Under the pieces are notes generated by a model. The model saw only the letters and a program-made list of their open reading frames with translations. It made no database searches and was not told where the DNA came from. Below, in pieces: positions 3 through 58,672 of a stretch of DNA of 64,000 bases. The DNA comes from Bradyrhizobium sp. S69 (lineage in GTDB: Bacteria; Pseudomonadota; Alphaproteobacteria; Rhizobiales; Xanthobacteraceae). A program made the position numbers and the translations under genes. The stretch's first letter is position 1. The number at the start of each line of letters is the position of its first letter. The DNA lies in NCBI RefSeq assembly GCF_009766005.1, contig NZ_LMUK01000010.1, positions 62,001 to 126,000 on the forward strand, given 5' to 3'.

Positions 3-284
3 GAGCGACAGGTGGTCTGCAGCTACGAAGGCCGCCATCGCGAACTGTGCCCGCACATCATCGGCACCAACATATCAGGCGAAGAGGTCGTGCTGGCCTG
101 GCAATTCGCCGGCGAGAGCTCAGGCCCGCTGCCGCAATGGCGATGCTTGAAGCTCGCCAATGTCCGGGATGCCCGCGCGCGCGACGGCCGTTGGCACGCC
201 GGCGGCTCGCACAAGACGACGCAGAAATGCGTTGTTAACATCGACCTCGACATCAACGTTCACGTGCGGAAGTTAAGGAAATAG
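3..284 (+). CDS. Conserved hypothetical protein, 3' part only
   Basis: An open frame runs in from the left edge of the window and stops at 284, leaving 93 visible residues. The first possible in-frame start is a GTG at 12, but the frame is open upstream of it with no ribosome binding site, so the true start is probably outside the window. The visible part is rich in Cys, His and Trp (YEGRHRELCPHIIG, PQWRCLKL) and ends in a basic tail. I have an impression of similar small uncharacterised proteobacterial proteins with a WYL-like compact beta fold, but I cannot name a family. No partner gene is visible downstream on this strand. Confidence 0.55.
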   Translation, partial: ERQVVCSYEGRHRELCPHIIGTNISGEEVVLAWQFAGESSGPLPQWRCLKLANVRDARARDGRWHAGGSHKTTQKCVVNIDLDINVHVRKLRK

Positions 285-309
285 CCCGTTCACGCTGCGT
301 CCGCGGGCC

Positions 310-576
310 TCACGCGCTTGGCAATTTCCGCCCCTTCTCCCGTTCAACCACCCCAATGTCGTACTGTCCCTGCAAATCCAGCCAGAACTGCGCACCGTTA
401 CCAAAGTAGCGGCCCAACCGTACGGCCGTATCGGCCGTGATCGCGCGACGAAAGTTGAGGATATCGGTGATACGGCCAGAGGGAACGCCGATATCGAGCG
501 ACAGCCGGTTGGCGCTGAGCTTGCGCGCGACGAGCTCGCGCTTCAGCAGGCGGCCGGGATGTACGATGGGAGCCAT
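310..576 (-). CDS. higA: HigA-type addiction module antitoxin, orphan
   Basis: 88 residues. The N-terminal MAPIVHPGRLLKREL and the following XRE-type helix-turn-helix (about residues 12-65, with the HigA-like segment FWLDLQGQYD at 65-73) match the HigA family. These small DNA-binding antitoxins repress their own promoter and neutralise the HigB mRNA interferase. I chose ATG 576 because homology begins there; the frame stays open upstream without homology. HigB normally lies immediately upstream of higA, but that space (577-673) holds only a perfect inverted repeat and then the end of an aldo/keto reductase gene, so no toxin is present. This is a solitary antitoxin. Confidence 0.85.
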   Translation of the reverse strand: MAPIVHPGRLLKRELVARKLSANRLSLDIGVPSGRITDILNFRRAITADTAVRLGRYFGNGAQFWLDLQGQYDIGVVEREKGRKLPSA

Positions 577-596
577 GTTCAACCTCTGTGGTGGTA

Positions 597-672
597 TGTA
601 GCCCGGATGAGCGCTTGCGATATCCGGGACGGCACGAAGACCCGGATATCGCAAGCGCTCATCCGGGCTACA
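597..672. repeat. Palindromic dispersed element, perfect 32-bp inverted repeat
   Basis: Arms at 597-628 and 641-672 are exact reverse complements across 32 bp, separated by a 12-nt loop (629-640). The outer edge begins TGTAGCCCGGATG. It fills the gap between the higA start and the aldo/keto reductase stop codon. The length and perfection are typical of REP-like or MITE-like palindromes of Bradyrhizobium rather than a simple terminator, although it could also end transcription from both sides. Confidence 0.85.
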
Positions 673-673
673 A

Positions 674-1672
674 TTACCGCGGCTCCCCGGAGAACCCCTC
701 GCGCAATTCCGCCAGCCGTTCCAGCGCCGCTTGCGGCAATGGGCCCTTCTGGACCGCGGCGAGTGCGTCCTCGAACTGCTGCGGCGTCGCCATGCCGACC
801 AGGATCGAACCCATCGCCGGATGCGAGATCGCAAACCGCGTCGCGGCTTCGGTCAGGCTGGTGGCAACCCCCTCCTCCACCAGCGGCAGCAGACGGCGGG
901 CGCGATCGATATCGGCGTCATAGCTCATGGCGGAGCCGATCGGCTCCGGCGCCGGGCTCGCGATCGGGTGACGCTCGGCCGACCCCGACAGCGCGCCGCC
1001 GGCCAGCACGCGGATGCCGACGACGCCGGTGCCGGCGGCCCAGGTGCGATCGAACAGGCGGCCATAATCCTGCGCCGGATAATGCTTCGGCAATGTCACG
1101 GCGGCCGACGGATTGAGCATGTTGTAGACCACCTGCGCGCTGTCGAAGGCGCCGCCATCGATCACCTGATGCAGCGCCGCGGTGTCGCCGACCGCCGTCA
1201 GCCCGAGAAAGCGAATTTTCCCCTGCTGGCGCAGCCGTTCGAACGCGGGCACCACCTCGTCCAGCACCTGCCGGACGCTGAGCGCCGGTCCGCCGCCATC
1301 CTCGGTAATCGAATTGTGCAGATGCAGGATGTCGACCCGCTCGAGCCGCAGCCGCGCCAGGCTGCCCTCGATCGATTTTGTCACGGCATCGGCAATGCGG
1401 CCGGTGTCGCTTGGCGGCAGCCGCACCTTGGTGCCGACCACGACATCGGCAGGCTTCAAGTTTTGCAGGACACGGCCGAGATTCGTTTCGGATTCGCCGT
1501 CGCCATATTGCACCGCCGTGTCGAAATAATTGATGCCGGCCGCGATCGCGCGCGCGACGGTGCGTTCCTGGTCGGCGTGATCGCCCCGCACCATGATGCC
1601 GCCGACGGCACCGCAGCCAAAGCCCAGCACCGAGAGCTGCATTCCCGTCCGCCCAAATGCCCGCATCTGCAT
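674..1672 (-). CDS. Aldo/keto reductase
   Basis: 332 residues, the usual size for a monomeric (beta/alpha)8-barrel aldo/keto reductase that reduces carbonyls with NADPH. The N-terminal FGRTGMQLSVLGFGCG is the family signature. The catalytic tetrad is visible as D51 and Y56 (FDTAVQYG), K82 (VGTKV) and H119 (ILHLH). The C-terminal part (FAISHPAMGSILVGMATPQQ, residues 284-303) contains the cofactor-binding region. It stands alone between the higA-side palindrome and a repeat-rich gap. The substrate cannot be deduced. Confidence 0.9.
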   Translation of the reverse strand: MQMRAFGRTGMQLSVLGFGCGAVGGIMVRGDHADQERTVARAIAAGINYFDTAVQYGDGESETNLGRVLQNLKPADVVVGTKVRLPPSDTGRIADAVTKSIEGSLARLRLERVDILHLHNSITEDGGGPALSVRQVLDEVVPAFERLRQQGKIRFLGLTAVGDTAALHQVIDGGAFDSAQVVYNMLNPSAAVTLPKHYPAQDYGRLFDRTWAAGTGVVGIRVLAGGALSGSAERHPIASPAPEPIGSAMSYDADIDRARRLLPLVEEGVATSLTEAATRFAISHPAMGSILVGMATPQQFEDALAAVQKGPLPQAALERLAELREGFSGEPR

Positions 1673-1744
1673 GACTGGTTCCTCCGGCTGTTCGCACGAC
1701 TATGCAATGCCGAGCGAGTGTCACCAAGCCCGATGTTTTGCAAG

Positions 1745-1867
1745 CTTCGCCGTCATCCTGAGGAGCGGCGTCTTCGCCGCGTCTCGAAGGATGCTGTTCA
1801 GCGCAGTGCGTGCGGCCATCCTTCGAGGCGCGCAAGAAAGAGCGCGCACCTCAGGATGACGGCGAAG
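1745..1867. repeat. Palindromic dispersed repeat, copy 1
   Basis: The outer arms CTTCGCCGTCATCCTGAG (1745-1762) and its reverse complement (1850-1867) are perfect. Inside them, GTCTCGAAGGATG and its imperfect complement CATCCTTCGAGGC form the rest of a long hairpin. A second copy with the same landmarks lies at 52132-52238. No coding function is evident. Confidence 0.75.
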
Positions 1868-2011
1868 CCGTTGCGCAGGATGATCTCAGCCGATGAAATC
1901 GTCAGACCGATCTTGCCCGACGGGCAAATCACCTTCGCGCGCGGAATCCTGTCCAGCCCCTTAGCGAAAAATATTCCGCTTTGTTTTTGACCCAAATCAC
2001 GTCTTCCATTG

Positions 2012-2440
2012 TCTATCCCACCCGATGAGAGGGGCGGCTCGCGATCGTCACGAACGTGCGGTGGGATGCGATGGACGCGAAGGCTGCGACTGACGAGCGT
2101 GGCTGACGCGGACGGCAAAGTCGTGTGGTCCTGACGCCCCAATGGCTGGTGTCAAGTTCCTGGGAAGCTCACGCTTCTTGCGGACGACGGTGACAAACAA
2201 GCTCTGGTCTCACCGGGGAGAGCACGGAATAAGCCGTAAACCATTGCGCAGGGAAGGCCGGAGTGTTTCCGCTGAACCTGTATGCTCATGTGCGCATTTC
2301 TTACGTGCATCTTGGCACATGAGACCGCGGGTGCAGCGCGCACCCGGTCTTCCCTGCGCCCTCTTTCTTTAGGGCGATCGAATTTTGCAAACCTCGGACA
2401 AATGATGTCGCGAGAATGCCAACGTGTGTGTGAGTCGCGT
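2012..2440 (+). repeat. Structured dispersed element, copy A
   Basis: Roughly 430 bp resembling, at clearly high but imperfect identity, the reverse complement of 42039-42547. Its core (2246-2359) can fold as a three-way junction. The closing stem is 2246-2256 with 2349-2359 (11 bp, perfect); hairpin 1 is 2285-2293 with 2315-2323 (CTCATGTGC/GCACATGAG); hairpin 2 is 2328-2334 with 2340-2346 (CGGGTGC/GCACCCG). The three stems are kept in copy B while the hairpin-1 loop differs. I recognise such strings as frequent in Bradyrhizobium genomes but know no assigned function. Confidence 0.75.
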
Positions 2441-2471
2441 CGTTGTTTGATGAATCCGAAAAAACCACTCA

Positions 2472-2595
2472 CGTCGTCCCGGCCTCCGCGCCGGGACCCA
2501 TACGGCGAGGACTCGCGTTTTAGGCAGTTGGGCAGATGCCTTCTATTACAATTGACGCCAGGGGTTATGGGTCCCGGCGTTCGCCGGGACGACGA
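2472..2595. repeat. Palindromic repeat with CGTCGTCCCGG ends
   Basis: The ends CGTCGTCCCGG (2472-2482) and CCGGGACGACG are inverted. Inner segments GGGACCCATA and TATGGGTCCC pair as well. It abuts the structured element upstream. The same kind of palindrome flanks the other structured element at 41888-42028, which suggests the two travel as one composite unit. Confidence 0.7.
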
Positions 2596-2602
2596 CAGTC
2601 CC

Positions 2603-3475
2603 CTACTCGCCCGCCTCCAGCACTTCCAGCACCAGCTCCATCGTCATCAGCACCGGATTGTCGCCGCGGACCAGCCGTCCTTCGGCGAGGCCGCCGAGAT
2701 AGTCGACCAGCGCGATGTCGAGTTCGGCTTGCAGCGCGCCGCCTTCACCTTGGGTGATGTTGCCCGAGCGGATCGCCAGTTCGGTCGCGAACGGCACTGT
2801 GCTGCTGCCATCGGTGAATTGCGCGCCGATGGTGCTGCCGACGCCGCCATGAATCTTGGCGCGGAAAATTCCGTGCTGACGACAAAAACCTTCCAGCGCG
2901 CCGGCAAAATCCTGGTTCGGGCGCAGCCGCAGCGCGAACGCGCGGCTGGAGGTCTTTGTGCCTGTCGCGGCGATCGAGACAGGACCGAACAGTTTAAAAT
3001 TGGTCTCGGGATCAAGCTCGGCCGCGAACATCGCGCCATCGATGCCGAACGCCTCGACCTCAAAGGGCTCGGCGACGATGGTCTCCTCCGGCAGCATATG
3101 GCCGCCATTGAGGCGTCCGGAAGCTTCGCTCCACAGCGCATGGCAATGGTAGAACGGCGCGCCGTCGCGCGTCCCCAACGTCATCGCGCCCATTTTCAGC
3201 CGGGTGACGCCGTCGGGCCGAAATGTGTCGCTGTAGAACGCGGCGTTGGCGCCGGTCTTCGACAGCGCCGGCATCACATAGGCGAACGGACCGAGTGCGC
3301 CGCCTCGCATGTTCAACGCGCCGCCGGCAAAACCGGCCGCGGCAAAGCCGCGCCGCGCGGCCTCCAGCAACGGCAGGCCGGCTTGCAGCGTAAACGCAAA
3401 CGCGCGCCCCCGCGCCTCGACCCATTGGATGCGTTCAGGCGCGGGCGGACCGGGCTGCTCGATACGACGCATCAT
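2603..3475 (-). CDS. PPC (DUF296) domain protein, tandem domains
   Basis: 290 residues. The N-terminal half contains the PPC/DUF296 hallmark: a strand with H110-C-H112 (FYHCHALWSE) followed by GGH at 124-126 (RLNGGHMLPEE). The C-terminal half repeats the fold (RAFALRLRPNQDF to the terminal MTMELVLEVLE), so it appears to be a fused tandem of PPC domains, which usually trimerise. The start is one base after the stop codon of the acyl-CoA synthetase gene, so the two are probably co-transcribed and translationally coupled. Bacterial PPC proteins have no settled biochemical role; the pairing suggests a link to acyl-CoA metabolism, which is inference. Confidence 0.75.
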   Translation of the reverse strand: MMRRIEQPGPPAPERIQWVEARGRAFAFTLQAGLPLLEAARRGFAAAGFAGGALNMRGGALGPFAYVMPALSKTGANAAFYSDTFRPDGVTRLKMGAMTLGTRDGAPFYHCHALWSEASGRLNGGHMLPEETIVAEPFEVEAFGIDGAMFAAELDPETNFKLFGPVSIAATGTKTSSRAFALRLRPNQDFAGALEGFCRQHGIFRAKIHGGVGSTIGAQFTDGSSTVPFATELAIRSGNITQGEGGALQAELDIALVDYLGGLAEGRLVRGDNPVLMTMELVLEVLEAGE

Positions 3476-5116
3476 TCAGCTGCTTGGTTTGGTGGTGACA
3501 TCAAGCAAACCGCGCGCTTCGAGCTCATCGCGCACCAGCCGTTTTGGAATTTTGCCGTAGCCGGATTTCGGCAGCGCATCCCAGAAGAAAAACCGCTTCG
3601 GCATCTTGTAGCGTGGCACCTTGGTGGCGAGATAGCCGGCGAGATCCAGCTCGCTCACCGCATCGGCGCCGTCACGCTTGACGCACACCGCGACGCCGAC
3701 CTCGCCCCAGACCGGATCGGGCACGCCGAGCACCGCGACCTCGCCGATCGCGGGATGGGTCAGGATCTTCTCCTCGACCTCGCGCGGGTAGATGTTGGAT
3801 CCGCCCGAGATGTACATGTCGGAGGCGCGGCCGGTGATATAGACAAACCCTTCCGCGTCCATATGACCGAGATCGCCGGTGCGAAACCAGCCGTCGCGGA
3901 ACGCTTTCGCATTGGCCTCGGGATTATCATAATAGCCGGCGAACACGGCCGGACCGATCACGCAGATCTCGCCGGTCTCGAACGGTTTCAGCTCATGGCC
4001 GTCATCGCCCTGGATCGAAACCTGCATGCCGGTGCGCTCGTAGCCGCAGCTACCAATGCGCGCCTGCGGCCCGTCTTCGGGGTCGTGCAGCTCCGCCGGC
4101 AGCACCGTGATGTTGCCGGTGACTTCGCCAAGCCCGAAATATTGCACCAGCACGCCGCCGAGTTTTTTCAGTGCCGCCTTCTGGTCCTCGCGGTACATCG
4201 GCGCGCCGGCATAGATTACGTAACGCAGCGACGAATGATCGAAGCGGTCGATCGCGGGATGTTCGACCATCATCTTCAGGATGGTCGGAACGGTAAAGAT
4301 GTTGCTGACGCGGTGCCGCTCGATCAGCCGGAATGCCTCGGTGATATCGAACCGCTCGGACGGCAGCAGGATGGTCGGCACCGCCCTCGCCGTCTGCATC
4401 AACTGATGCACGCCGGCGCCGTGCGACAGCGGCGCCACCACCAGCGACGCATCGCGCTCGGTGGTGCCGGGCGTGAGGTCGGCCAGGTGGTTGGTCACCA
4501 CGAAAGCCATCTGGCCGTGGGTCAGCACCGCGGCCTTGGAGCGGCCCGTGGTGCCCGAGGTGAAGAAGAACCAGCAGGGATCGTCATAGTCGACCGCGAC
4601 ATTCGCAAACGAACTTCCCGCATGCGCCTTGATCGCTTCGGTCAGCGTTGTCTCGCCAAAGGCGCCCTCGCCGATCCGCCAGATGAATTCGGGCCCGGAT
4701 ATTGCGGCGGCATGCTCGGGGAAATCGCCGTGGCACAGGAACGCTCGCGCGCCAGAAGCCGTGGCGAGATAGGCGACCTCATCGGGCATCAGCCGGAAAT
4801 TGGTGGGAACCCAGACCGCGCCCAACCGGAAGGCCGCGAACATCGACCAGAACATCTCGTCGCAATTCTTGGAATGGACCAGGATGCGGTCGCCCTTGAC
4901 GATGCCGCGCGCCGCGAGTGCCGCCGCCAGCGCCGAGACGTGGCCGTCGATCTCGCGCCAGCTCCAGGACCTGTCGCCCCAGATGAAACCCGCCCGCTCG
5001 CCGTGCCGGCGCGCGTTCTGGGTCACGAGATGCGCCAGATTCATCACCCGGCGCGACATCCTGGCCATGCCGCCGCGCGGCGCGTCGGCCCCGGTTGCGT
5101 TCGCCTGCCCGTTCAC
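3476..5116 (-). CDS. Acyl-CoA synthetase (AMP-dependent synthetase/ligase)
   Basis: 546 residues of the ANL superfamily, which activates a carboxylic acid with ATP to an acyl-adenylate and then forms the CoA thioester. Motif A3 is at 184-200 (FFFTSGTTGRSKAAVLTH), the aryl/fatty-acid gate region is near LVQYFGLGEVTG, and the C-terminal hinge (WFRTGDLGHMDAEGFVYITG) and terminal catalytic lysine segment (LPKSGYGKIPKRLV) are intact. The start used is GTG 5116, next to the stop of the upstream small membrane gene; internal ATGs at residues 17, 20 and 25 are alternatives. The substrate is probably a medium or long fatty acid, but the sequence does not settle it. Confidence 0.9.
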   Translation of the reverse strand: MNGQANATGADAPRGGMARMSRRVMNLAHLVTQNARRHGERAGFIWGDRSWSWREIDGHVSALAAALAARGIVKGDRILVHSKNCDEMFWSMFAAFRLGAVWVPTNFRLMPDEVAYLATASGARAFLCHGDFPEHAAAISGPEFIWRIGEGAFGETTLTEAIKAHAGSSFANVAVDYDDPCWFFFTSGTTGRSKAAVLTHGQMAFVVTNHLADLTPGTTERDASLVVAPLSHGAGVHQLMQTARAVPTILLPSERFDITEAFRLIERHRVSNIFTVPTILKMMVEHPAIDRFDHSSLRYVIYAGAPMYREDQKAALKKLGGVLVQYFGLGEVTGNITVLPAELHDPEDGPQARIGSCGYERTGMQVSIQGDDGHELKPFETGEICVIGPAVFAGYYDNPEANAKAFRDGWFRTGDLGHMDAEGFVYITGRASDMYISGGSNIYPREVEEKILTHPAIGEVAVLGVPDPVWGEVGVAVCVKRDGADAVSELDLAGYLATKVPRYKMPKRFFFWDALPKSGYGKIPKRLVRDELEARGLLDVTTKPSS

Positions 5117-5317
5117 TTATCGGCGCCCGATGAAGACGCCGGCGCCGAGCAGCACCAGGCCGACCACACCAGCCACGATGCCGTGCTTGGTATGCGTATG
5201 GACATCGCCGGCCGCGTACCCCGGGAAGAAACTCGGCAGCTGATCCGCCGGGATCAGGAAATAGACCGCGGCGACCACCAGCAGGACGACGCCGAGCAGC
5301 GACAGAACGAGTTTCAT
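5117..5317 (-). CDS. Small two-helix membrane protein
   Basis: 66 residues from ATG 5317, chosen because GGAGGAAAAAA sits just upstream; a longer frame to 5365 has no such site. An N-terminal hydrophobic helix (LVLSLLGVVLLVVAAVYFLI) is followed by a short loop containing HTHTKH, then a second helix (GIVAGVVGLVLLGAGVFIG) ending in RR. The stop codon directly precedes the GTG of the acyl-CoA synthetase gene, so it probably leads that operon. Function unknown. Confidence 0.75.
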   Translation of the reverse strand: MKLVLSLLGVVLLVVAAVYFLIPADQLPSFFPGYAAGDVHTHTKHGIVAGVVGLVLLGAGVFIGRR

Positions 5318-5388
5318 GGATTTTTTCCTCCCAAACGGATGTTCAGAAAATTGAAGCAGATTCACGCGCGGTTGTTAATGGGGGCCTT

Positions 5389-5537
5389 CGTCATTCCGGG
5401 ACGCGCCACCTCGGCGCGGGCCCGGAATCCATACTCCCTGTGCTAGCGTTCGGCGACCAACATCGCCACAGGGGTTATGGATTCTCAGATGCGCAATTGC
5501 GCATCGTAGCCCTCGCTTCGCTCGTCCCGGAATGACG
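5389..5537. repeat. Palindromic repeat with CGTCATTCCGGG ends
   Basis: The ends CGTCATTCCGGG (5389-5400) and CCCGGAATGACG (5526-5537) are exact inverted repeats. Inner GGCCCGGAATCCATA and TTATGGATTC also pair. It lies between two minus-strand genes and is related in layout to the palindromes at 2472 and 41888. Confidence 0.7.
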
Positions 5538-5544
5538 CCCGCCC

Positions 5545-5673
5545 TCACCGCACCCCGGTGCCCTTGCAGCGCTGGCACTTCACGACATGGTCGCCCTTCT
5601 TGACCAGGCCCTTGCCCTCGCAATTTTTGCATTTCTGCTTCTTCTTGACGTTGGGGCCCTTTTCATTGGCCAT
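5545..5673 (-). CDS. 42-residue protein with DnaJ-like zinc ribbon
   Basis: From ATG 5673 the product is MANEKGPNVKKKQ followed by two CxxCxGxG modules: C15-x2-C18 (CKNCEGKG) and C33-x2-C36 (CQRCKGTG). This is the minimal half of a DnaJ-type zinc-binding cysteine-rich region, joined by a KKGDHVVK hairpin. Other bacterial mini zinc ribbons bind Zn and may act as RNA or protein adaptors, but no partner can be named. The frame extends further upstream, but the alternative N-terminus lies over the divergent DUF3828 promoter and looks non-coding. Confidence 0.75.
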   Translation of the reverse strand: MANEKGPNVKKKQKCKNCEGKGLVKKGDHVVKCQRCKGTGVR

Positions 5674-5763
5674 GTTATTGCTCCGCGGCAAATCGAACGC
5701 ATGATCGCGCCCGAACGACATATTCGAACACCCACATACAGCATACGCCAATTGAGGACAGAG

Positions 5764-6315
5764 ATGATCACCCGCCGCGCCCTGATTTCGACCAGCCTTA
5801 CTGGTCTCTTTGCCAGCCTGTTTGCCGGCGCCACCGCCCGCGCCGCCTTCGCCGAACCGGCCTCCGGCGGCGATCCCGTGGCCATCGTGACGGCGATCTA
5901 TACCCGCGCGGCCAAGGGCAAAGGCGATGGCGGCGGCGGCTTCGTGATCGAGAACAAGGCGGCGAAAGCCAAATATCTGTCGAAATCGCTGATCGCGTTA
6001 TGGGCCAAGGCCGATGCCCACACGGCCAAGGGCGATGTCGGGCCCATCGATTTCGATCCGGTCACCAATTCGCAGGACCCGGAGGTAAAGTCGTTCAAGG
6101 TGATCGCCGAAAAACTCGCGGCCGACAAGGCTACGATCGCGGCGACCATGACCGGCAGCCAGCCGCGCACGAAATCCGACGACGAAACCGTGCGCTACGA
6201 TTTCGTGCGCGACGGCGACAAATGGAAGATCGATGATATCAAGGGGGCGATCGATGGCGCGCCGTGGTCGATCCGCGGCATGCTGAAGGACTCCCTGAAA
6301 GAATCCGTGAAGTGA
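5764..6315 (+). CDS. Exported DUF3828-family protein
   Basis: 183 residues from ATG 5764. The N-terminus (MITRRALISTSLTGLFASLF, with cleavage probably after ARAAFA) looks like a signal peptide with twin arginines. The remainder matches the DUF3828 pattern: an early helix (VAIVTAIYTRA), a conserved central region (IDFDPVTNSQDPEVKSFKV) and a C-terminal strand with VRYDFVRDGDKWKIDDIK, reminiscent of NTF2/lumazine-binding folds. Periplasmic; role unknown. It is followed after 7 bp by the GNAT-like gene, so the two probably form a small operon. Confidence 0.75.
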   Translation: MITRRALISTSLTGLFASLFAGATARAAFAEPASGGDPVAIVTAIYTRAAKGKGDGGGGFVIENKAAKAKYLSKSLIALWAKADAHTAKGDVGPIDFDPVTNSQDPEVKSFKVIAEKLAADKATIAATMTGSQPRTKSDDETVRYDFVRDGDKWKIDDIKGAIDGAPWSIRGMLKDSLKESVK

Positions 6316-6322
6316 GCTCGAC

Positions 6323-6595
6323 ATGAACCAGGTCCGCGACAACAAATCCCAACACCGCTTCGAGCTCGACGTCGAAGACGCGATAGCGTTCGCGAATTAT
6401 CGCCTTTCGCCCGATACCGTCATCATCACCCACACCGAAACCCCGAGCGCGCTACGCGGCCGCGGCATCGCCTCGGAACTGGTCAAGGGCGCGCTGAATA
6501 TCATCCGCGCCGACGGATTGAAGGTGGTCGCCGGCTGCGGGTTCGTGGTGGATTATCTGCACAAGCATCCGGAATACGCGGATCTGGAGCGCTGA
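6323..6595 (+). CDS. Small GNAT-like N-acetyltransferase (YjdJ/Gtn5 type)
   Basis: 90 residues, the size of the minimal GNAT proteins of the YjdJ type (PF14542), far shorter than typical acetyltransferases. The acetyl-CoA pyrophosphate loop is seen in RGRGIASELVKGAL (about 46-59), preceded by the strand IITHTETPSALR, and followed by a conserved CGFVVDYLHKHPEY end. The substrate is unknown. It begins 7 bp after the DUF3828 gene. Confidence 0.85.
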   Translation: MNQVRDNKSQHRFELDVEDAIAFANYRLSPDTVIITHTETPSALRGRGIASELVKGALNIIRADGLKVVAGCGFVVDYLHKHPEYADLER

Positions 6596-6606
6596 CTTGA
6601 TCGCCT

Positions 6607-7398
6607 TCACACGATCCGGATCGACATGTCCGGCAAGCCTTCGAGCTTGCACAACAGCACGTCGCCCTTCACCACCGGGCCGACATTCTCCGGGGTACCG
6701 GAATAGATGATGTCGCCGGCCTTGAGTTCGAACGCCTCGGACAACTTCGCAATCTGTTCGGCGACGCTCCAGGTCATGCGGTCGAGGTCGGAATTCTGCC
6801 GGATGGTGCCGTTGACGGCGAGCGAGATCGCGCCCTTGGCGAGGTGACCGACTTTGGCCACGGGATGGATCGGGCCGAGCACGGCGGCATGATCGAAACT
6901 CTTGCCGATTTCCCACGGCTTCTTTTCGGAAGCCATCCCGTTCTGCAGGTCGCGCCGCGTCATATCGAGCCCAAGCGCGTAGCCATAGACGTGATCGAGC
7001 GCCTGCTCCGGCGCGATATTGGTGCCGCCCGATTTCAGCGCTGCGACCAGTTCGACTTCGTGGTGGTAGTTCTTGGTGAGCAACGGATAGGGATGATCCG
7101 CCACCGTGCCGACCGCGACGTTCTGGATCGCATCGGTCGGTTTCTGGAAAAAGAACGGCGGCTCGCGGGTCGGATCCGAGCCGCGCTCGATCGCATGCGC
7201 GGCATAATTGCGCCCGATGCAGTAGATGCGGCGAACCGGAAACACCTCGGCTTGGCCTGCGATCGGGATCGTCACCGCGGGCACCGCGAAGATCGGCTTG
7301 GGGGCGGCCTGCGCCTCGGCGCGGCCGATGGACGTGGCGGCGCCGGTCAGCGCCAGCGCGCCGGTGGCGAGAATGGTCCTGCGATCGACGGTATCCAA
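6607..7398 (-). CDS. Fumarylacetoacetate hydrolase family protein with export-like N-terminus
   Basis: The FAH-fold catalytic domain covers most of the protein: VRRIYCIGRNYAAHA (entrance motif), a metal-binding acidic region around NYHHEVELVAAL, RDLQN and the C-terminal GDIIYSGTPENVGPV. Family members hydrolyse or decarboxylate 2-oxo acids and acylpyruvates using Mg2+. I prefer TTG 7398 as the start, because a GGAG lies 7 nt upstream and it begins DTVDRRTILATGALALTGAA, a twin-arginine-like signal; the in-frame ATG at 7464 has no ribosome binding site. FAH proteins are usually cytosolic, so an exported form is notable. Confidence 0.85.
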   Translation of the reverse strand: MDTVDRRTILATGALALTGAATSIGRAEAQAAPKPIFAVPAVTIPIAGQAEVFPVRRIYCIGRNYAAHAIERGSDPTREPPFFFQKPTDAIQNVAVGTVADHPYPLLTKNYHHEVELVAALKSGGTNIAPEQALDHVYGYALGLDMTRRDLQNGMASEKKPWEIGKSFDHAAVLGPIHPVAKVGHLAKGAISLAVNGTIRQNSDLDRMTWSVAEQIAKLSEAFELKAGDIIYSGTPENVGPVVKGDVLLCKLEGLPDMSIRIV

Positions 7399-7492
7399 GG
7401 GCAGTCTCCGCTCAAGCGTTGCTTGTTCCGAGCGGTATCTAGACCCCTGCTTCGCCGAGAGCAAGCAATGCTAGATCAGCGAAACGGCAACG

Positions 7493-7519
7493 AAAAAGGC
7501 CCGCGAGGATGCGGGCCTT
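7493..7519 (-). terminator. Rho-independent terminator
   Basis: AAGGCCCGC (7496-7504) pairs with GCGGGCCTT (7511-7519) across a 6-nt loop. On the minus strand it is followed by a run of five T (7493-7497, partly in the stem). It lies 22 bp downstream of the DUF3597 stop and upstream of the FAH-family gene. Confidence 0.7.
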
Positions 7520-7541
7520 GATCGCAGCTTCAAGCCAAAGC

Positions 7542-7976
7542 TCAGTGCTTGATTTCCGGGGGCAGCTTGCCGCCATTGGCCGCCAGTTTCGCCATCACCT
7601 GCTTGTGCAGCCAGATATTCATGGTGGCGGAATCATTGGTGTCGCCGGTGTAGCCGAGTTCCTTGGCCAGCTCCTTGCGCGCCGTGAGGCTGGAATCGAT
7701 GTTGAGCGCCTTCAGCAGATCGACGATCGATGTGCGCCATTCCAGCTTTTCGCCGGTCGCGGCCGCCGCCTTGTCGACAATCGCCGCGACGTCGACGGTT
7801 TGCGCCGGCGCCGCCGATGCAGACGCGGAGGATCCTGCCGACGGTCCGGCGGAGGACGATGCGGTGCTGGCCCCGCTCGACGAAGCGCTGCCAGCCGTGG
7901 CCGCGCCGCCGCTCGCCGGTGTTGCGCTGGCGTGGCTGCCAAAGATCGCGCCCATGATTTTTCCGAAAATGCTCAT
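7542..7976 (-). CDS. DUF3597 domain protein
   Basis: 144 residues from ATG 7976 with GGGAGC upstream. The N-terminus MSIFGKIMGAIFGSHA is the family signature. Residues 17-60 are an Ala/Ser/Gly low-complexity linker, and the C-terminal domain (VDVAAIVDKAAAATGEKLEW to the end) is predicted helical and resembles a LysM-like or peptidoglycan-associated small fold. No function is established. A terminator follows at 7493-7519. Confidence 0.85.
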   Translation of the reverse strand: MSIFGKIMGAIFGSHASATPASGGAATAGSASSSGASTASSSAGPSAGSSASASAAPAQTVDVAAIVDKAAAATGEKLEWRTSIVDLLKALNIDSSLTARKELAKELGYTGDTNDSATMNIWLHKQVMAKLAANGGKLPPEIKH

Positions 7977-8333
7977 CGTTTGCTCCCAATGAATGCAGAT
8001 ATCTGTGACGGCTCGAACGCGGAAGTTTAGCCGCCCCCCACGCGCTTGCCAATGCGGCAAGGAGGCATTGGAACCAGTCTAGCGGCGGCGCAGTGACGGC
8101 GGAATGACAGGCACAAGCATGTGCACCGCGGCAACACCGAAGCGTGAGCGCTCATGCCACAGGATTGAGCGTACGCTGACCGCTCAGCTCGCGACATGGC
8201 CAGTTTCGGTTTCCTGTCTTCGCGTCTGGCCTGATCGTGATCGTTTCCGTTAGGCGGCTCGTGTGCGTCCTTTGCCGGGCGCCAAAAAGCGTGACCGCTG
8301 TAACAGGGGAAACAACGAAAGGGAGACAACGAC

Positions 8334-9251
8334 ATGGCGACATCATACCCAAGCAGTGTCACACCGCCCAGGGACGAGACCGCAGCCGGCTCCGCCGCCG
8401 CCCCGATCATCCGCACCATCGGCCTGTCCGACCTGCATCAGGCGTTGCGCCTTGGCTGGGAGGATTTCAAGGCGGTGCCCAGTCACGCCATCATCCTGTG
8501 CGTGATCTATCCGGTCCTCGGACTGGTGCTGGCGCGCACCGTACTCGGCTATTCGGTATTGCCATTGCTGTTTCCGCTCGCGGCGGGCTTTGCCCTGCTC
8601 GGCCCATTCGCAGCCCTCGGTCTGTATGAACTCAGCCGCCGCCGGGAAAGCGGTGAACGGGCGTCGGCTTGGGATGCGCTCGAGGTACTTCGCTCGCCCT
8701 CGTTCGGCGCCATGCTGGGCGTCGGCGTGCTGCTGCTGGCGCTGTTTGTGACCTGGGTTGCGACCGCGCAGGCGATCTATGTCGCCGCATTCGGCTATGA
8801 AGCCGCGGCCGGCATTCCGGATTTCGCCGAGCGCATCCTGACGACATCGCAAGGGTGGTGGCTGGTCGTGATCGGCTGTGGGGTCGGATTCCTGTTCGCC
8901 GTGGTGGCGTTGTGCATCAGCGTGGTTTCATTCCCTCTGATGCTCGACCGACAGGCTGGCGCCGGCGACGCCATGGTGACGTCGCTTCGCGCGGTGGCGA
9001 AAAATCCGGTGCCGATGGCGGCTTGGGGATTGATCGTGGCGGTGCTGCTGGTGCTGGGATCGCTGCCGTTCTTCCTCGGTCTCGCGATCGTGATCCCGCT
9101 GCTCGGCCATGCCACCTGGCATCTCTATCGCGCGGTGATCGCGCCCGACCCGAACCCGCGACCGCTTCCGCCGAAGCCGCAGTTTGAAAAGCGTTCCGCG
9201 GCCGATTTTCCGTCCGCCCTGTTTTCATGGCGACGCAAGGACGGCGCCTAA
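8334..9251 (+). CDS. DUF2189 integral membrane protein
   Basis: 305 residues preceded by GGGAG (8320-8324). After a short Pro/Ala-rich cytoplasmic N-terminus, the DUF2189 signature appears (LSDLHQALRLGWEDFKAVPS). About six hydrophobic segments follow (for example AIILCVIYPVLGLVLA, VGVLLLALFVTWVATAQA, VIGCGVGFLFAVVALCISVV, LIVAVLLVLGSLPFFLGLAI). Family members are uncharacterised inner-membrane proteins, sometimes near respiratory genes. No operon partner is close; the next gene starts 178 bp downstream. Confidence 0.85.
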   Translation: MATSYPSSVTPPRDETAAGSAAAPIIRTIGLSDLHQALRLGWEDFKAVPSHAIILCVIYPVLGLVLARTVLGYSVLPLLFPLAAGFALLGPFAALGLYELSRRRESGERASAWDALEVLRSPSFGAMLGVGVLLLALFVTWVATAQAIYVAAFGYEAAAGIPDFAERILTTSQGWWLVVIGCGVGFLFAVVALCISVVSFPLMLDRQAGAGDAMVTSLRAVAKNPVPMAAWGLIVAVLLVLGSLPFFLGLAIVIPLLGHATWHLYRAVIAPDPNPRPLPPKPQFEKRSAADFPSALFSWRRKDGA

Positions 9252-41569: not shown

Positions 41570-41887
41570 CGCGACCCTGTTTCCCCAGCCGATTTTTGCT
41601 TCGCTTTCGCGGGCAGCTAGCTGGTTATTTCTTGCGAAAGATCATTTCATGGAGGGGTGTGGCTAAAAAGCGGCGCGGACAAGAACTGCCTGTGATAAGG
41701 GTTAAATCTTCACCTAGTGTTGCGGCCGCGCAACAATCGTGGCCCGAGGGCAACCATCTGGAACGCTTCCAAGGCAAGCTTTCAAGTTGAGCTTTTTCAG
41801 GGATGCTCGGAATCGGCCCGAGTAAAGGCCTCGCCCAGGGCATCGCGTCTGCACGCTGCGCGGGCTGCCCCTGCCCGGCCTCCACCG

Positions 41888-42028
41888 TCGTCGTCCCCGC
41901 GAAGGCGGGGACCCATACGCCGTGTGTTCTCTTTTCGGCAATGTGGCGGATGCCTTCCTTCACAACCCACGCCAGGGGCTATGGGTCCCGGCCCCTTACG
42001 CGCAATTGCGCGCTAGGCCGGGACGACG
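41888..42028. repeat. Palindromic repeat with CGTCGTCCCC/GGGACGACG ends
   Basis: CGTCGTCCCCGC at 41888 and CCGGGACGACG at 42018-42028 are inverted, and GGGACCCATA (41918 region) pairs with CTATGGGTCCC further in. Same layout as 2472-2595. Each of these palindromes abuts one copy of the structured element on the same side. Confidence 0.7.
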
Positions 42029-42038
42029 TGGATGGGTG

Positions 42039-42547
42039 ATCGCGATTCACACACTTCCGCATTCTCGCGACACACTGCGCCCGAGCTTTGCAAATCGTTT
42101 CGCCCCAAAAAAAGAGAGGGCGCAGGGAAGACCGGGTGCGCGCTGCACCCGAGGTCTCATGTGCAAAGGCAAACAAAAAAACGCACATGAGCATACAGGT
42201 TCAGCGGAAGCAGTCCGGCCTTCCCTGCGCAATGGCTTTACGACTTATTCCGTGCTCTCCCCGGCGAGACCAGGCTTGCTTGTCACCGTCGCCTTGCAGA
42301 TGTTGGCGCATCGTTAGCCCGGTCGGGCGGATGCACCTCTACAAGACTTGACGCCAACCATTGGGGCGTCAGGACCACACGATTTCGCCGTACGCGCTTG
42401 CCTCGTTCGTCCTGCGCGCCGGTTGTTCGCTCACAGCCCCGAAGAGCCGCCCTGCGAAACCATGCGCGCGCGAGCCACCGCGTCCACCGCATCCCACCGC
42501 GCGTTTCGTGACGATCGCGAGCCGCCCCTCGTTCGGGTGAGACAGGC
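42039..42547 (-). repeat. Structured dispersed element, copy B (inverted)
   Basis: Reverse complement relative of 2012-2440. The closing stem is 42120-42130 with 42220-42230, hairpin CGGGTGC 42133-42139 with 42145-42151, and hairpin CTCATGTGC 42156-42164 with 42183-42191, the same three stems as copy A. The loop of the CTCATGTGC hairpin differs in sequence and is T-rich on the minus strand. An extra internal stretch (about 42300-42345 and 42400-42480) makes this copy longer. No open frame is conserved with confidence. Confidence 0.75.
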
Positions 42548-42853
42548 GTAATTAGGAAGATGATTTGCCTTGCGAAGGAAGTGAATTATTTTTTGCGTAC
42601 GGTCTGGACAGGGCAAATCACGTTGAAAAGGCCGAAGAAATTAGATTTTAGGAGCGAGGGAACGAGCGGTTGAAAATGACCGTTTAGGGCTTACGCAACG
42701 CGCATTTTGGAACCGGAGGGATTCTGTTTTGCGTGGCTTAAATCCTTGCCACTGCTCTAACGACCGTTAACGGACGTACACTTTCCCTCTGTCTCAAAAG
42801 CTGGCAGAAACGCGGGAAGGGTTTTGGCGGGTGCTATGTTGAGAGTAAGCATC

Positions 42854-52131: not shown

Positions 52132-52238
52132 CCGTCATCCTGAGGTGCGAGCCCTTGCGAGCCTCGAAGGATGGCCGCACGCACAGCGCCGAACAACATC
52201 CTTCGAGGCTCGCTACGCTCGCACCTCAGGACGACGTC
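52132..52238. repeat. Palindromic dispersed repeat, copy 2
   Basis: CCGTCATCCTGAGGTGCGAG (52132-52151) is inverted in CTCGCACCTCAGGACGACG (52218-52236), with GAGCCTCGAAGGATG paired to CATCCTTCGAGGCTC inside. Same family as 1745-1867. Lies between the Bug protein and threonine synthase, on the side of both genes' 5' and 3' ends respectively. Confidence 0.8.
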
Positions 52239-55574: not shown

Positions 55575-56933
55575 CTACACCATCATCATGACGGGGTTTT
55601 CGATCAGCATCTTGAACGCGCCGATCAGCTCCGCGCCGAGCGCGCCGTCGACCGCGCGATGATCGCAGGACAAGGTCACGCTCATGATGTGCGCGGCTTC
55701 GATCTTGCCAGCCCTCACGACGGCACGTTCCTCGCTGGTGCCGACCGCCAGGATGGTGGCGTGCGGCGGATTGATCACGGCGGTAAAATCCTTGATGCCG
55801 TACATGCCGAGATTGGAGATCGCGGTGGTGCCGCCCTGATATTCCTCGGGCTTGAGTTTGCGCGCCCGCGCCCGCGCCGCAAAGTCCTTCATCTCGGCCG
55901 AAATCGTCGACAGCGACTTGGTCTCGGCGTTGCGGATGATCGGGGTGATCAGGCCGCCCGGCATCGCCACCGCGACACCGATATCGGAATGCTTGTGCTT
56001 GAGCATGCCGGATTCGGTCCAGCTCACATTGCAATTGGGAATCCGCTGCAACGCGACCGCCATCGCCTTGATGACGAAGTCGTTGACCGACAATTTGTAG
56101 AGCGGCTTCTTTTCCTTGTCCTTGGGCGCCGAGGCATTGATCTCCTCGCGCGCCGCCAAAAGCTTGCCGATGTCGCAGTCCATCGTCAGATAGAAATGCG
56201 GAACGGTCTGCACCGATGCGGTCAGGCGCTGGGCGATGGTGCGACGCATGCCGTCATGCGGCACGATCTCGTAGCTGCCGGGTTCGAACAGAGCCAGGAT
56301 CTGCTTGTCCGACATCGACGGCGCGATCGCAGGCGCGCCGGCGGATGGTGCTGCGGCCGGAGCCTTGAGGCCCTTGCCGGATTTGGCCTCCGCGACGTCG
56401 CGGGCGATGACGCGGCCGTGCGGACCCGAACCGGTGATGCGTCCGAGTTCGATGCCGGCTTCCTTGGCGAGACGCCGGGCCAGCGGTGACGAGAACGTGC
56501 GGTCGTGGCCATTGGCCTGCGCCGCAGGTGCGGCGGCTTTCGGTGCGGGAGCCGGCGCAGCGGCGGGAGCTGGGGCCTTCGCGGCCGGTGCGGCGGCAGC
56601 GGGTGCAGGCGCAGCGGCAGGTTTCGGGGCCGGTGCTTCGGCCGCTTTGGGCGCGGGTGCAGCCCCCGCTCCGGCCGCTTTCACATCCTCGCCGTCGCTG
56701 GCCAAGACCGCGATCACGTCATTGACCGGCACGTCCTGGGTGCCCTCGGGCACCAGGATCTTGGCGATCGTGCCTTCGTCGACCGCCTCGACCTCCATGG
56801 TCGCCTTGTCGGTCTCGATCTCGGCGATCACGTCGCCCGACTTGACCTTGTCGCCCTCTTTCTTGAGCCACTTGGCCAGATTGCCCTTTTCCATCGTGGG
56901 CGACAGCGCAGGCATGAGAATATTGATTGGCAT
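55575..56933 (-). CDS. pdhC: Dihydrolipoyl acetyltransferase (E2) of pyruvate dehydrogenase
   Basis: 452 residues from ATG 56933. N-terminal lipoyl domain with lipoylated K43 ([13 protein letters not shown]), a long Ala/Pro linker (about 85-130), the E1/E3-binding domain ([33 protein letters not shown]), and the catalytic core ending in the DHRAVDG motif ([16 protein letters not shown]). It transfers acetyl groups from E1 to CoA. Two bp after the DUF5076 gene. Confidence 0.96.
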
Positions 56934-57244: not shown

Positions 57245-58672
57245 TCACCGATAGCAAACGGCTTTGGCGGCTTCGACCACCTCCGCCACCGAAGGTAATG
57301 CCAGCTTTTCGAGATTTGCCGCATATGGCATCGGCACGTCCTTGCCCGACACCCGCGCCACCGGCGCATCGAGATAATCGAACGCGTGCTCCATCAAGCG
57401 GGCGGCGATTTCGGCCCCGACGCCATTCTGCTGCCAGCCCTCTTCCACCGTCACGGCGCGGCCGGTCTTCTTCACGGAAGCGACAAGGGTATCGGTGTCC
57501 ATCGGGCGCAGCGTGCGCAAATCGATCACCTCGGCCTCGATGCCTTCCTTGGCCAGCTCGTCGGCGGCCTTCAGCGCGTAGGACATTCCGTTCGACCAGG
57601 AGATGATCGTGACATGCGTACCGGTTCGCACCACGCGCGCCTTGCCGATCGGGATCACGTAATCGTCGAGCTTCGGGACTTCACCCGTATGGCCGTACAG
57701 CATTTCGTTTTCGAGGAAGATCACCGGATTGGGGTCGCGGATCGCAGCCTTCAGCAGGCCCTTGTAATCGGCGGCCGAATACGGCGCGACCACCTTGAGG
57801 CCGGGGACCTGGGAGTACCAGGACGAATAGTCCTGGCTATGCTGGGCCGCGACGCGGGCAGCGGCGCCGTTGGGCCCGCGGAACACGATCGCGCAGCCCA
57901 TCTGGCCGCCCGACATGTACAGCGTCTTGGCGGCGGAATTGATGATCTGGTCCATCGCCTGCATGGCGAAATTGAAGGTCATGAATTCGACGATCGGCTT
58001 TAAGCCGGACATCGCGGCACCGACCCCGATGCCGGCAAAGCCGTGCTCGGTGATCGGCGTGTCGATCACGCGCCTTGCGCCGAATTCCTGCAACAGACCC
58101 TGGCTGACCTTGTAGGCGCCCTGATATTCGGCGACTTCTTCGCCCATCAGAAATACGTCCGGGTCACGCCGCATTTCCTCGGCCATGGCGTCGCGCAGCG
58201 CGTCGCGGATCGTCATCGTCACCATTTCCGTGCCCGCGGGTACTTCCGGATCGGGCTCGGCGGCGGCCTTCGGCGCGGCAGGCTTGCTCTCGGTAGATTT
58301 GGTTTCGGCAGATTTGGTTTCAGCCGGCGCCGACTTCGCTTCGGCGGCAGGCGCCTCGGCGGCCTTCTCTGGCGTTTTTTCCGGCTTGGGCGGCGCTGCC
58401 GCCACCTTGCCGAGATCGGCCGCACTCTCGCCATCCGACAAAATGGTTGCGATCGGGGTATTGACCGCGACGTCGTTGGTGCCTTCGGGGATCAGGATCT
58501 GGCCGAGCGTGCCTTCATCGGTGGCCTCGACTTCCATCGTCGCCTTGTCGGTCTCGATCTCGGCGATGACGTCGCCGGATTTGATCGTCTCGCCTTCCTT
58601 TTTCAGCCATTTGGCAAGGTTGCCCTTTTCCATGGTGGGCGACAGCGCAGGCATCAGCACTTGAATGGGCAT
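57245..58672 (-). CDS. pdhB: Pyruvate dehydrogenase E1 beta with its own lipoyl domain
   Basis: 475 residues. The N-terminal lipoyl domain ([19 protein letters not shown]43) is followed by a Lys/Glu/Ala/Pro linker with repeated SAETKS-like units (about 90-130) and then the E1-beta transketolase domain ([38 protein letters not shown]). An E1-beta that carries a lipoyl domain is characteristic of alphaproteobacterial and mitochondrial-type complexes. Pairs with PdhA. Confidence 0.95.

Follow-up and report, generated by a model that had tools for sequence, protein, structure and literature searches.

The dispersed element that occurs twice in the window, the whole stretch of 64,000 nucleotides (nts) analysed here, most likely represents a structured RNA gene of a new class that has been amplified in Bradyrhizobium and whose copies evolve in concert. 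An RNA gene family is its most likely identity, rather than a transposon remnant or a REP. Its members likely specify a stand-alone non-coding RNA of ~360–430 nts, which is predicted to be transcribed from its own sigma-70-type promoter, would likely act in trans and would probably be bound by a protein through a U-rich loop. A preliminary description of this DNA had favoured a non-coding RNA over a simple REP, and covariation, a fixed promoter position and family-wide conservation support that preference. Both copies it placed in the window are present, copy 1 at 2012–2440 on the plus strand and copy 2 at 42039–42547 on the minus strand; its three stems are found in both alike, and the loop of the second stem does differ between them. 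The conserved unit of copy 1, however, extends 5′ to ~1923, beyond the start at 2012 originally given, and copy alignment together with the consensus fold adds helices 5′ of the three stems. The parts of copy 1, followed by those of copy 2, are:

1923..2015, plus: 5′ module of copy 1, the promoter region, weak in this copy
1923–1931, plus: GGCAAATCA in the 5′ module
plus, listed between GGCAAATCA and TTGACC: AAAAATATTCCGCTT in the 5′ module
1987–1992, plus: TTGACC in the 5′ module
1991–1999, plus: CCCAAATCA in the 5′ module
2014..2375, plus: predicted RNA body (RNAalifold on 71 copies; single-sequence fold)
2016..2066, plus: 5′ hairpin, TCCCACCCG at 2016–2024 paired with 2057–2066, enclosing the conserved ATCGTCAC
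2068..2247, plus: central multi-helix domain, closed by GCGATGG/CCATTGC at 2068–2074/2241–2247
2156–2185, plus: variable arm inside the central domain
2246..2359, plus: 3′ domain, made of P1, P2 and the GGGTGC/GCACCC hairpin
2246–2261/2344–2359, plus: P1, closing stem of the 3′ domain
2246–2256/2349–2359, plus: closing stem as first described, GCGCAGGGAAG/CTTCCCTGCGC, also in copy 2
2285–2323, plus: P2 hairpin with U-rich loop
inside 2285–2294/2314–2323, plus: second stem as first described, CTCATGTGC/GCACATGAG, also in copy 2
2329–2345, plus: GGGTGC/GCACCC hairpin
2328–2334/2340–2346, plus: third stem as first described, CGGGTGC/GCACCCG, also in copy 2
2358..2375, plus: GCCCTC/TAGGGC hairpin with T-rich loop
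2393..2414, plus: 3′ hairpin CTCGGACA/TGTCGCGAG
42056..42542, minus: copy 2, in which ~55 and ~27 nts inserted relative to copy 1 lengthen the central arms
42543..42620, minus: 5′ module of copy 2 (TGATTTGCC...GGCAAATCA)

The window also holds other repeats. An inverted pair at 1778–1836 and 52154–52212 (59 nts, 90% complementary) is a different dispersed repeat, and direct copies at 56710–56933 and 58449–58672 (224 nts, 82% alike) are unrelated to the element.

The consensus fold was obtained with RNAalifold from 71 of the 73 copies in this genome, the other two being cut by contig ends. In this alignment, conservation runs over ~475 nts, from the CTGATTT/CAAATCA region to the hairpin CTCGGGC...GTCGCGAG, and the predicted fold occupies nearly the whole unit, ~360 nts, more than the earlier account had described. 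It proceeds from a 5′ hairpin through the central domain (GCGRTGG/CCATTGC) and a variable arm to the 3′ domain and two 3′ hairpins. A very similar fold results from 112 copies, non-redundant at 86% and taken from this genome, six relatives and named genomes; as a single sequence, 2014–2372 folds with a z of −4.74, that is, 4.7 standard deviations better than 100 dinucleotide shuffles. The absence of covariation, which would speak against a folded RNA, is not borne out: base pairs covary both within the genus and across genera. Under a tree-simulated null for the 112 copies, the 95,266 column pairs include 3 with E<0.05, each of them part of the 117-pair structure; no other pair passes this phylogeny-aware test, and of the four pairs that exceed every null value, one lies outside the structure.

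The 3′ domain permits a closer comparison among 51 diverse copies. To build that alignment, 59 of 96 excised copies were joined by copy 1 of the window; manual curation then removed seven rows (five for truncation, misalignment or a deletion, two needlessly), and the trimming rule another two. Scored for the three originally proposed stems plus a CGCT/AGCG pairing, 91.8% of its cells are paired. Two-sided changes occur in 16 of 33 pairs versus a shuffled mean of 9.1, and covariation is 0.232, a value reached by 0 of 500 shuffles, versus 0.118 for shuffled alignments; slid versions of the structure attain at most 0.066. Across genera, in a 32-row alignment that was fitted to the model's own structure and includes 2 antisense matches, covariation is 0.340 versus 0.167. 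Pairing in the closing stem there reaches 99.6%, and three of its pairs are made up of AU19/GC12/GU1, GC20/CG12 and GC15/CG12/UA4/AU1, respectively. The covariance model is palindromic, so the antisense strand also matches. The loop columns of P2 are 43% U versus 22% in the domain, and UUU occurs in 33 of the 51 loops. The stems themselves are real; the three-way junction into which they had been assembled is one of two arrangements. GGGTGC has two mutually exclusive pairings, both well conserved. In the nested alternative, CGCTG/CAGCG and ACCTG/CGGGT lengthen the closing stem, with a score similar to that of the three-stem version, and four CGCTG/CAGCG pairs fit both folds. G–U pairs number GU:20 and GU:10 in the stem set with the junction and GU:14 in the nested alternative. 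Since GGGTGC can be used in only one pairing at a time, the junction is possible, not proven.

A protein-coding element is judged unlikely. As first reported, no open frame is clearly shared: 1886 of 2005 indels between copies of this genome, counted after removal of rare alignment columns, are not divisible by three. On the other side stand the longest stop-free frames, which average 117 amino acids in the copies versus 97 in mononucleotide shuffles, an excess that GC-rich DNA can produce. One stop-free frame matches 207 database proteins, and among the 120 of these that are listed there are no Pfam domains and no names other than “hypothetical protein”. Annotation has probably been misled by the element, given this frame and its unnamed or hypothetical matches.

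The family is predicted to carry its own sigma-70-type promoter, clear in other genera and weak in this one. The 232 copies compared comprise 225 that belong to this genus or to its named records and 7 from other genera. The best −10-like box lies 24–32 nts upstream of an AGGGG anchor in 179 of them, though promoter scores over the same set barely exceed shuffles (a score of at least 8 in 9.5% vs. 4.1%). In the other genera, 5 of 7 copies have TTGACA and, 16–18 nts on, a TATA box, immediately upstream of the first helix; L466 and L503 each agree with the promoter consensus at 11 of 12 bases, and 15 aligned copies of one genome (G354) yield the consensus TTGACA-16-TATATT. Copy 1 of the window gives no sigma-70 match at the scan threshold. 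RpoD-like promoter motifs are described in excerpts of PMC4842269. Given its fixed position, the promoter predicts that the RNA begins near the first helix. At the other end, no intrinsic terminator follows the body at the scan threshold in the window copy or in L466, and L503 has one weak internal terminator match and none after the body; a tail like GTGGCTGTTTGACATTNGAATC is common to several copies of other genera. A [CG]CAAATCA box, at 1991–1999 in copy 1, is found 52–57 nts before ATCGTCAC in 118 of the 127 copies that have this anchor (26 of 153 copies lack it and are left out of the count), and is placed like a regulator site inside the promoter. At two sites orthologous between genomes G003 and G010 (L429/L432 and L430/L436), a related RNA body and a common right flank accompany unlike 5′ promoter modules, which look as if they had been exchanged.

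In this genome the core string GCGCAGGGAAGGCCGGANTG has 73 matches with up to 2 mismatches (0 for the backwards-read control), one at each of the 73 fetched loci, and the relatives G019 and G031 hold at least 40 copies each. By pattern, copies occur in 33 of 36 genomes of the genus, in numbers that differ strongly among relatives; the other 3 show none at 2 mismatches. Pattern searching of 24 genomes from 24 other genera turned up no convincing copy, with two single sites at two mismatches, and a DNA search of 150 genomes of the order, confined to the best 4 candidates or fewer per genome, gave 5 matches, four in this genus and one of 45 nts elsewhere. With the covariance model of the 3′ domain, 102 of 248 genomes in the taxonomic family match, representing 20 of 47 genera, as do 18 of 397 in the order, one of them outside the family and in a genome 85% complete; the two surveys scored at most 14 and 9 candidates per genome, respectively, and their per-genome counts are lower bounds, to be read as “at least”. 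Two genomes of other genera searched singly with this model yielded 28 and 17 matches. Matching genomes of other genera have 1 to 28 matches each; in this genus the number reaches 73. Near full-length relatives are readable in several of the loci L466–L479. The earlier statement that similar strings occur at many sites in Bradyrhizobium genomes agrees with record titles: among the matches listed, 103 of 115 loci lie in records titled Bradyrhizobium, the pattern having been built from this genome's subfamily. Searches of plasmids and phages returned no matches to the element. A 4 kb contig titled Candidatus Acidiferrales (L292) carries a copy; this bin from another phylum is probably mis-binned. 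In the assembly of the present genome, contigs C15, C34, C45, C48 and C51 end in or near copies, and assembly seems to break at the element family.

Many copies occupy the same sites in different genomes. A copy stands directly beside the gene adjoining copy 1, on the same side, in 7 of 29 fetched loci (145 relatives searched). G019 and G031, whose flanks are ~90% alike, were compared through 40 copies each, flanks of up to ~1.5 kb being called orthologous upon a same-orientation alignment of at least 250 nts at 70% or more. By this rule 12 pairs have both flanks in common, 14 the right only and 1 the left only. Thus 26 of the 40 G019 copies have a right flank in common with a G031 copy, and two further ones do so with an insertion between. 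All right-to-right matches are in the same orientation; four matches fall outside these same-orientation counts, three left-to-left and inverted (59–76%) and one right-to-left. The present genome yields 15 pairs with G019 or G031 by the right flank only and 1 by both. Between G019 and G031, orthologous elements are more alike than other pairs (median 84% vs. 73%), whereas those of the present genome are 70–71% identical to their orthologues, no better than its other pairs with the relatives (71%), and 81% alike among themselves. In a tree, 69 of 70 copies of this genome form one clade with a support of 0.856. The nearest sequence is a paralogue in its own genome for 10 of 10 copies with an alignable orthologue in G019 or G031 (87–93% vs. 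70–80%); L084, truncated at the edge of its contig, would be the eleventh and lies outside this count. Among 57 G019 and G031 copies that have at least one orthologue, 21 have it as their nearest sequence. Paralogues closer than orthologues at the same sites mean concerted evolution, and copies probably overwrite one another by gene conversion, a simpler reading than independent insertion at the same site and in the same orientation.

The two sides of the element change unequally. When each locus of this genome is counted once, the right flank is kept and the left changed at 31 loci, with the reverse at 2. Included here are two further genome pairs, examined through 15 copies each at a threshold of 68%, with 6 right-only, 2 both-sided and 0 left-only cases; at the same threshold one right-only and one left-only pair occur across clades. 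Over 20 kb, in 10 pairs selected for being right-only, homology begins at the 5′ module, passes through the element and continues at least 4.2 kb past it. To the left, 20 to 8404 nts of non-shared DNA intervene in the nine pairs where synteny resumes, and these nine have no common left border. Eight G019 copies had no G031 orthologue by the flank rule (up to 1.5 kb, 250 nts). The matching G031 stretch lacks the element for 6 of them; for the other 2 the element is present, next to a 3′-side insertion of 1.26 or 1.43 kb, and the rule misses these orthologues. Because of these two 3′-side insertions, the bias toward change on the 5′ side is strong, not absolute. A conserved 3′ spacer protecting the right side is not supported, the right spacer being poorly conserved. 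The strands of copies look mixed along G019, as judged by eye with replication polarity in mind.

The copies must have dispersed somehow. A SINE- or MITE-like element, mobile but non-autonomous, that uses its folded strand or RNA to be moved by the enzyme of another locus would account for tens of scattered copies, lineage-specific sequence types, copy numbers that vary strongly among relatives and the 6 of 8 tested G019 copies whose G031 stretch lacks the element. It is nevertheless unlikely: the right flanks held in common with G031, the two interrupted ones included, place many copies at orthologous sites, and promoter and structure are kept across genera. Homology on both sides was found at 2 of 8 places examined for empty sites, and the one absent site inspected over its whole length is occupied by other repeats and shows no target duplication. 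Nor does an enzyme stand out among the neighbour families listed. Pfam families were assigned to 26 of the 30 left-hand genes in 20 flanks; most concern metabolism, transport and regulation, and none is an integrase. One of the 30 genes is IS110, which is not the regular association expected of IS110 bridge RNAs. No HNH or RuvC nuclease, and no recurring transposase, nuclease or integrase family, appears in these 30 genes or in the best 25 families of 99 on the left and of 120 on the right. The earlier suggestion of an RNA-guided or mobile element is accordingly not supported, and no known transposon was found of which the copies could be remnants. Insertion on the 5′ side driven by a transposase or integrase was likewise set aside, no such family recurring among those listed.

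Two further explanations treat the element as a fixture of its locus. As a DNA landmark, a hotspot of recombination or integration that takes up foreign genes at its 5′ end and whose fold reflects hairpins of single-stranded DNA, it would explain the 31 to 2 excess of changed left flanks and the 10 pairs, chosen as right-only, that keep synteny through element and right flank and break at the 5′ module. We regard this as improbable, given the lack of an integrase among the 30 left-hand genes and of a common left border in nine pairs, the two orthologues with 3′-side insertions of 1.26 and 1.43 kb, and the G–U pairs (GU:20, GU:10, GU:14), which suit RNA better than DNA. That the element acts in cis on an adjoining gene, as a leader, terminator or insulator, is more improbable still. 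The right-hand neighbour is kept, and by home-made gene calls the copies are intergenic with a mild bias to the 3′ ends of genes; by the same calls, however, 76 copies have a right-hand gene that points toward them and 54 one that points away, the right spacer is poorly conserved, and each Pfam family is found in at most 2 of the 62 right-hand neighbours scanned. These 62, with 60 on the left, were selected by hand from this genome; three weak matches to defence families were seen among 60 neighbours.

Under the preferred reading of a stand-alone RNA gene, transcription would start from the sigma-70-type promoter just before the first helix, which would set the 5′ end there, and the RNA would fold into its conserved, ornate structure. 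Action in trans with a protein partner is suggested because the P2 loop is U-rich, the promoter independent and no neighbour family fixed; the RNA may thus work as an RNA–protein particle bound via the P2 hairpin loop. Many copies would raise RNA dosage, and gene conversion would keep them alike. A bolder form of this reading, possible though doubtful, is a new RNA class resembling dispersed rRNA genes: dozens of single copies chromosome-wide, at sites fixed between species, subject to gene conversion and each marking the 3′ edge of a zone of accessory genes. If true, one RNA family would shape both the RNA world of the cell and how its genome is laid out. In a genus of symbiotic soil bacteria, an RNA family several hundred nts long with tens of copies, evolving in concert at fixed sites, would be an unusual natural example of multicopy RNA genes other than those for rRNA and tRNA. 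It would occupy ~35 kb of the present genome, provided that every one of the 73 copies is close to full length. A knock-out would be simple in relatives that show one match under strict filters (e.g., G317, G328 and G335).

None of 4227 Rfam families reaches its gathering threshold in the 64,000-nt window, which includes no rRNA match, and copy 1 and L466 give weak sub-threshold matches only; the models for HEARO and for group II introns match neither the window nor these two sequences. HEARO, or IscB omega RNA, is likewise structured and can be present in many copies that lack an ORF. The element differs from it in having no Rfam HEARO match, and in that neither HNH nor IscB is among the neighbour families listed. 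Large structured RNAs whose function is unknown are an open question in bacterial RNA biology; among them, OLE, GOLLD and ROOL are large RNAs of unclear mechanism (cf. PMC12286853). Like the present element, they are several hundred nts long, with many conserved helices and no shared frame. Unlike them, the element has tens of copies, evolves in concert, lacks an Rfam match and, in the genomes searched, is nearly confined to one bacterial family. Among the titles and abstract openings listed from the open-access literature, none describes it, and by term counts the main text of PMC11109978 and PMC8632094 has none of the genus names searched.

The REPs of Bradyrhizobium resemble the element in being intergenic, numerous and formed of stem-loops (PMC5082802 and PMC3733652, both in part). 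The excerpts give Br-REP1 and Br-REP2, whose consensus differs from the element (PMC5082802), and REPs of the CGTC/GTAG kind (PMC3733652). These are palindromes of 20–40 bp, whereas the element is a fold of ~360 nts with covariation and a promoter; that covarying fold speaks against a simple REP. REP-like palindromes GTCGTCCCGG...CCGGGACGAC, separate from the element, do lie directly 3′ of both window copies (2468–2600 and 41880–42010) and beside several other copies, and in L497–L525 of G354 the 15-copy consensus has a palindrome, CCCGGAATC/GATTCCGGG, just 5′ of the RNA, like Br-REP2 as given in part of PMC5082802. The closest parallel in mode of evolution is offered by multicopy rRNA genes, in which paralogues are also closer than orthologues (PMC8022953 and PMC6053082, both in part); unlike rRNA genes, the copies of the element are dispersed singly, and number up to 73.
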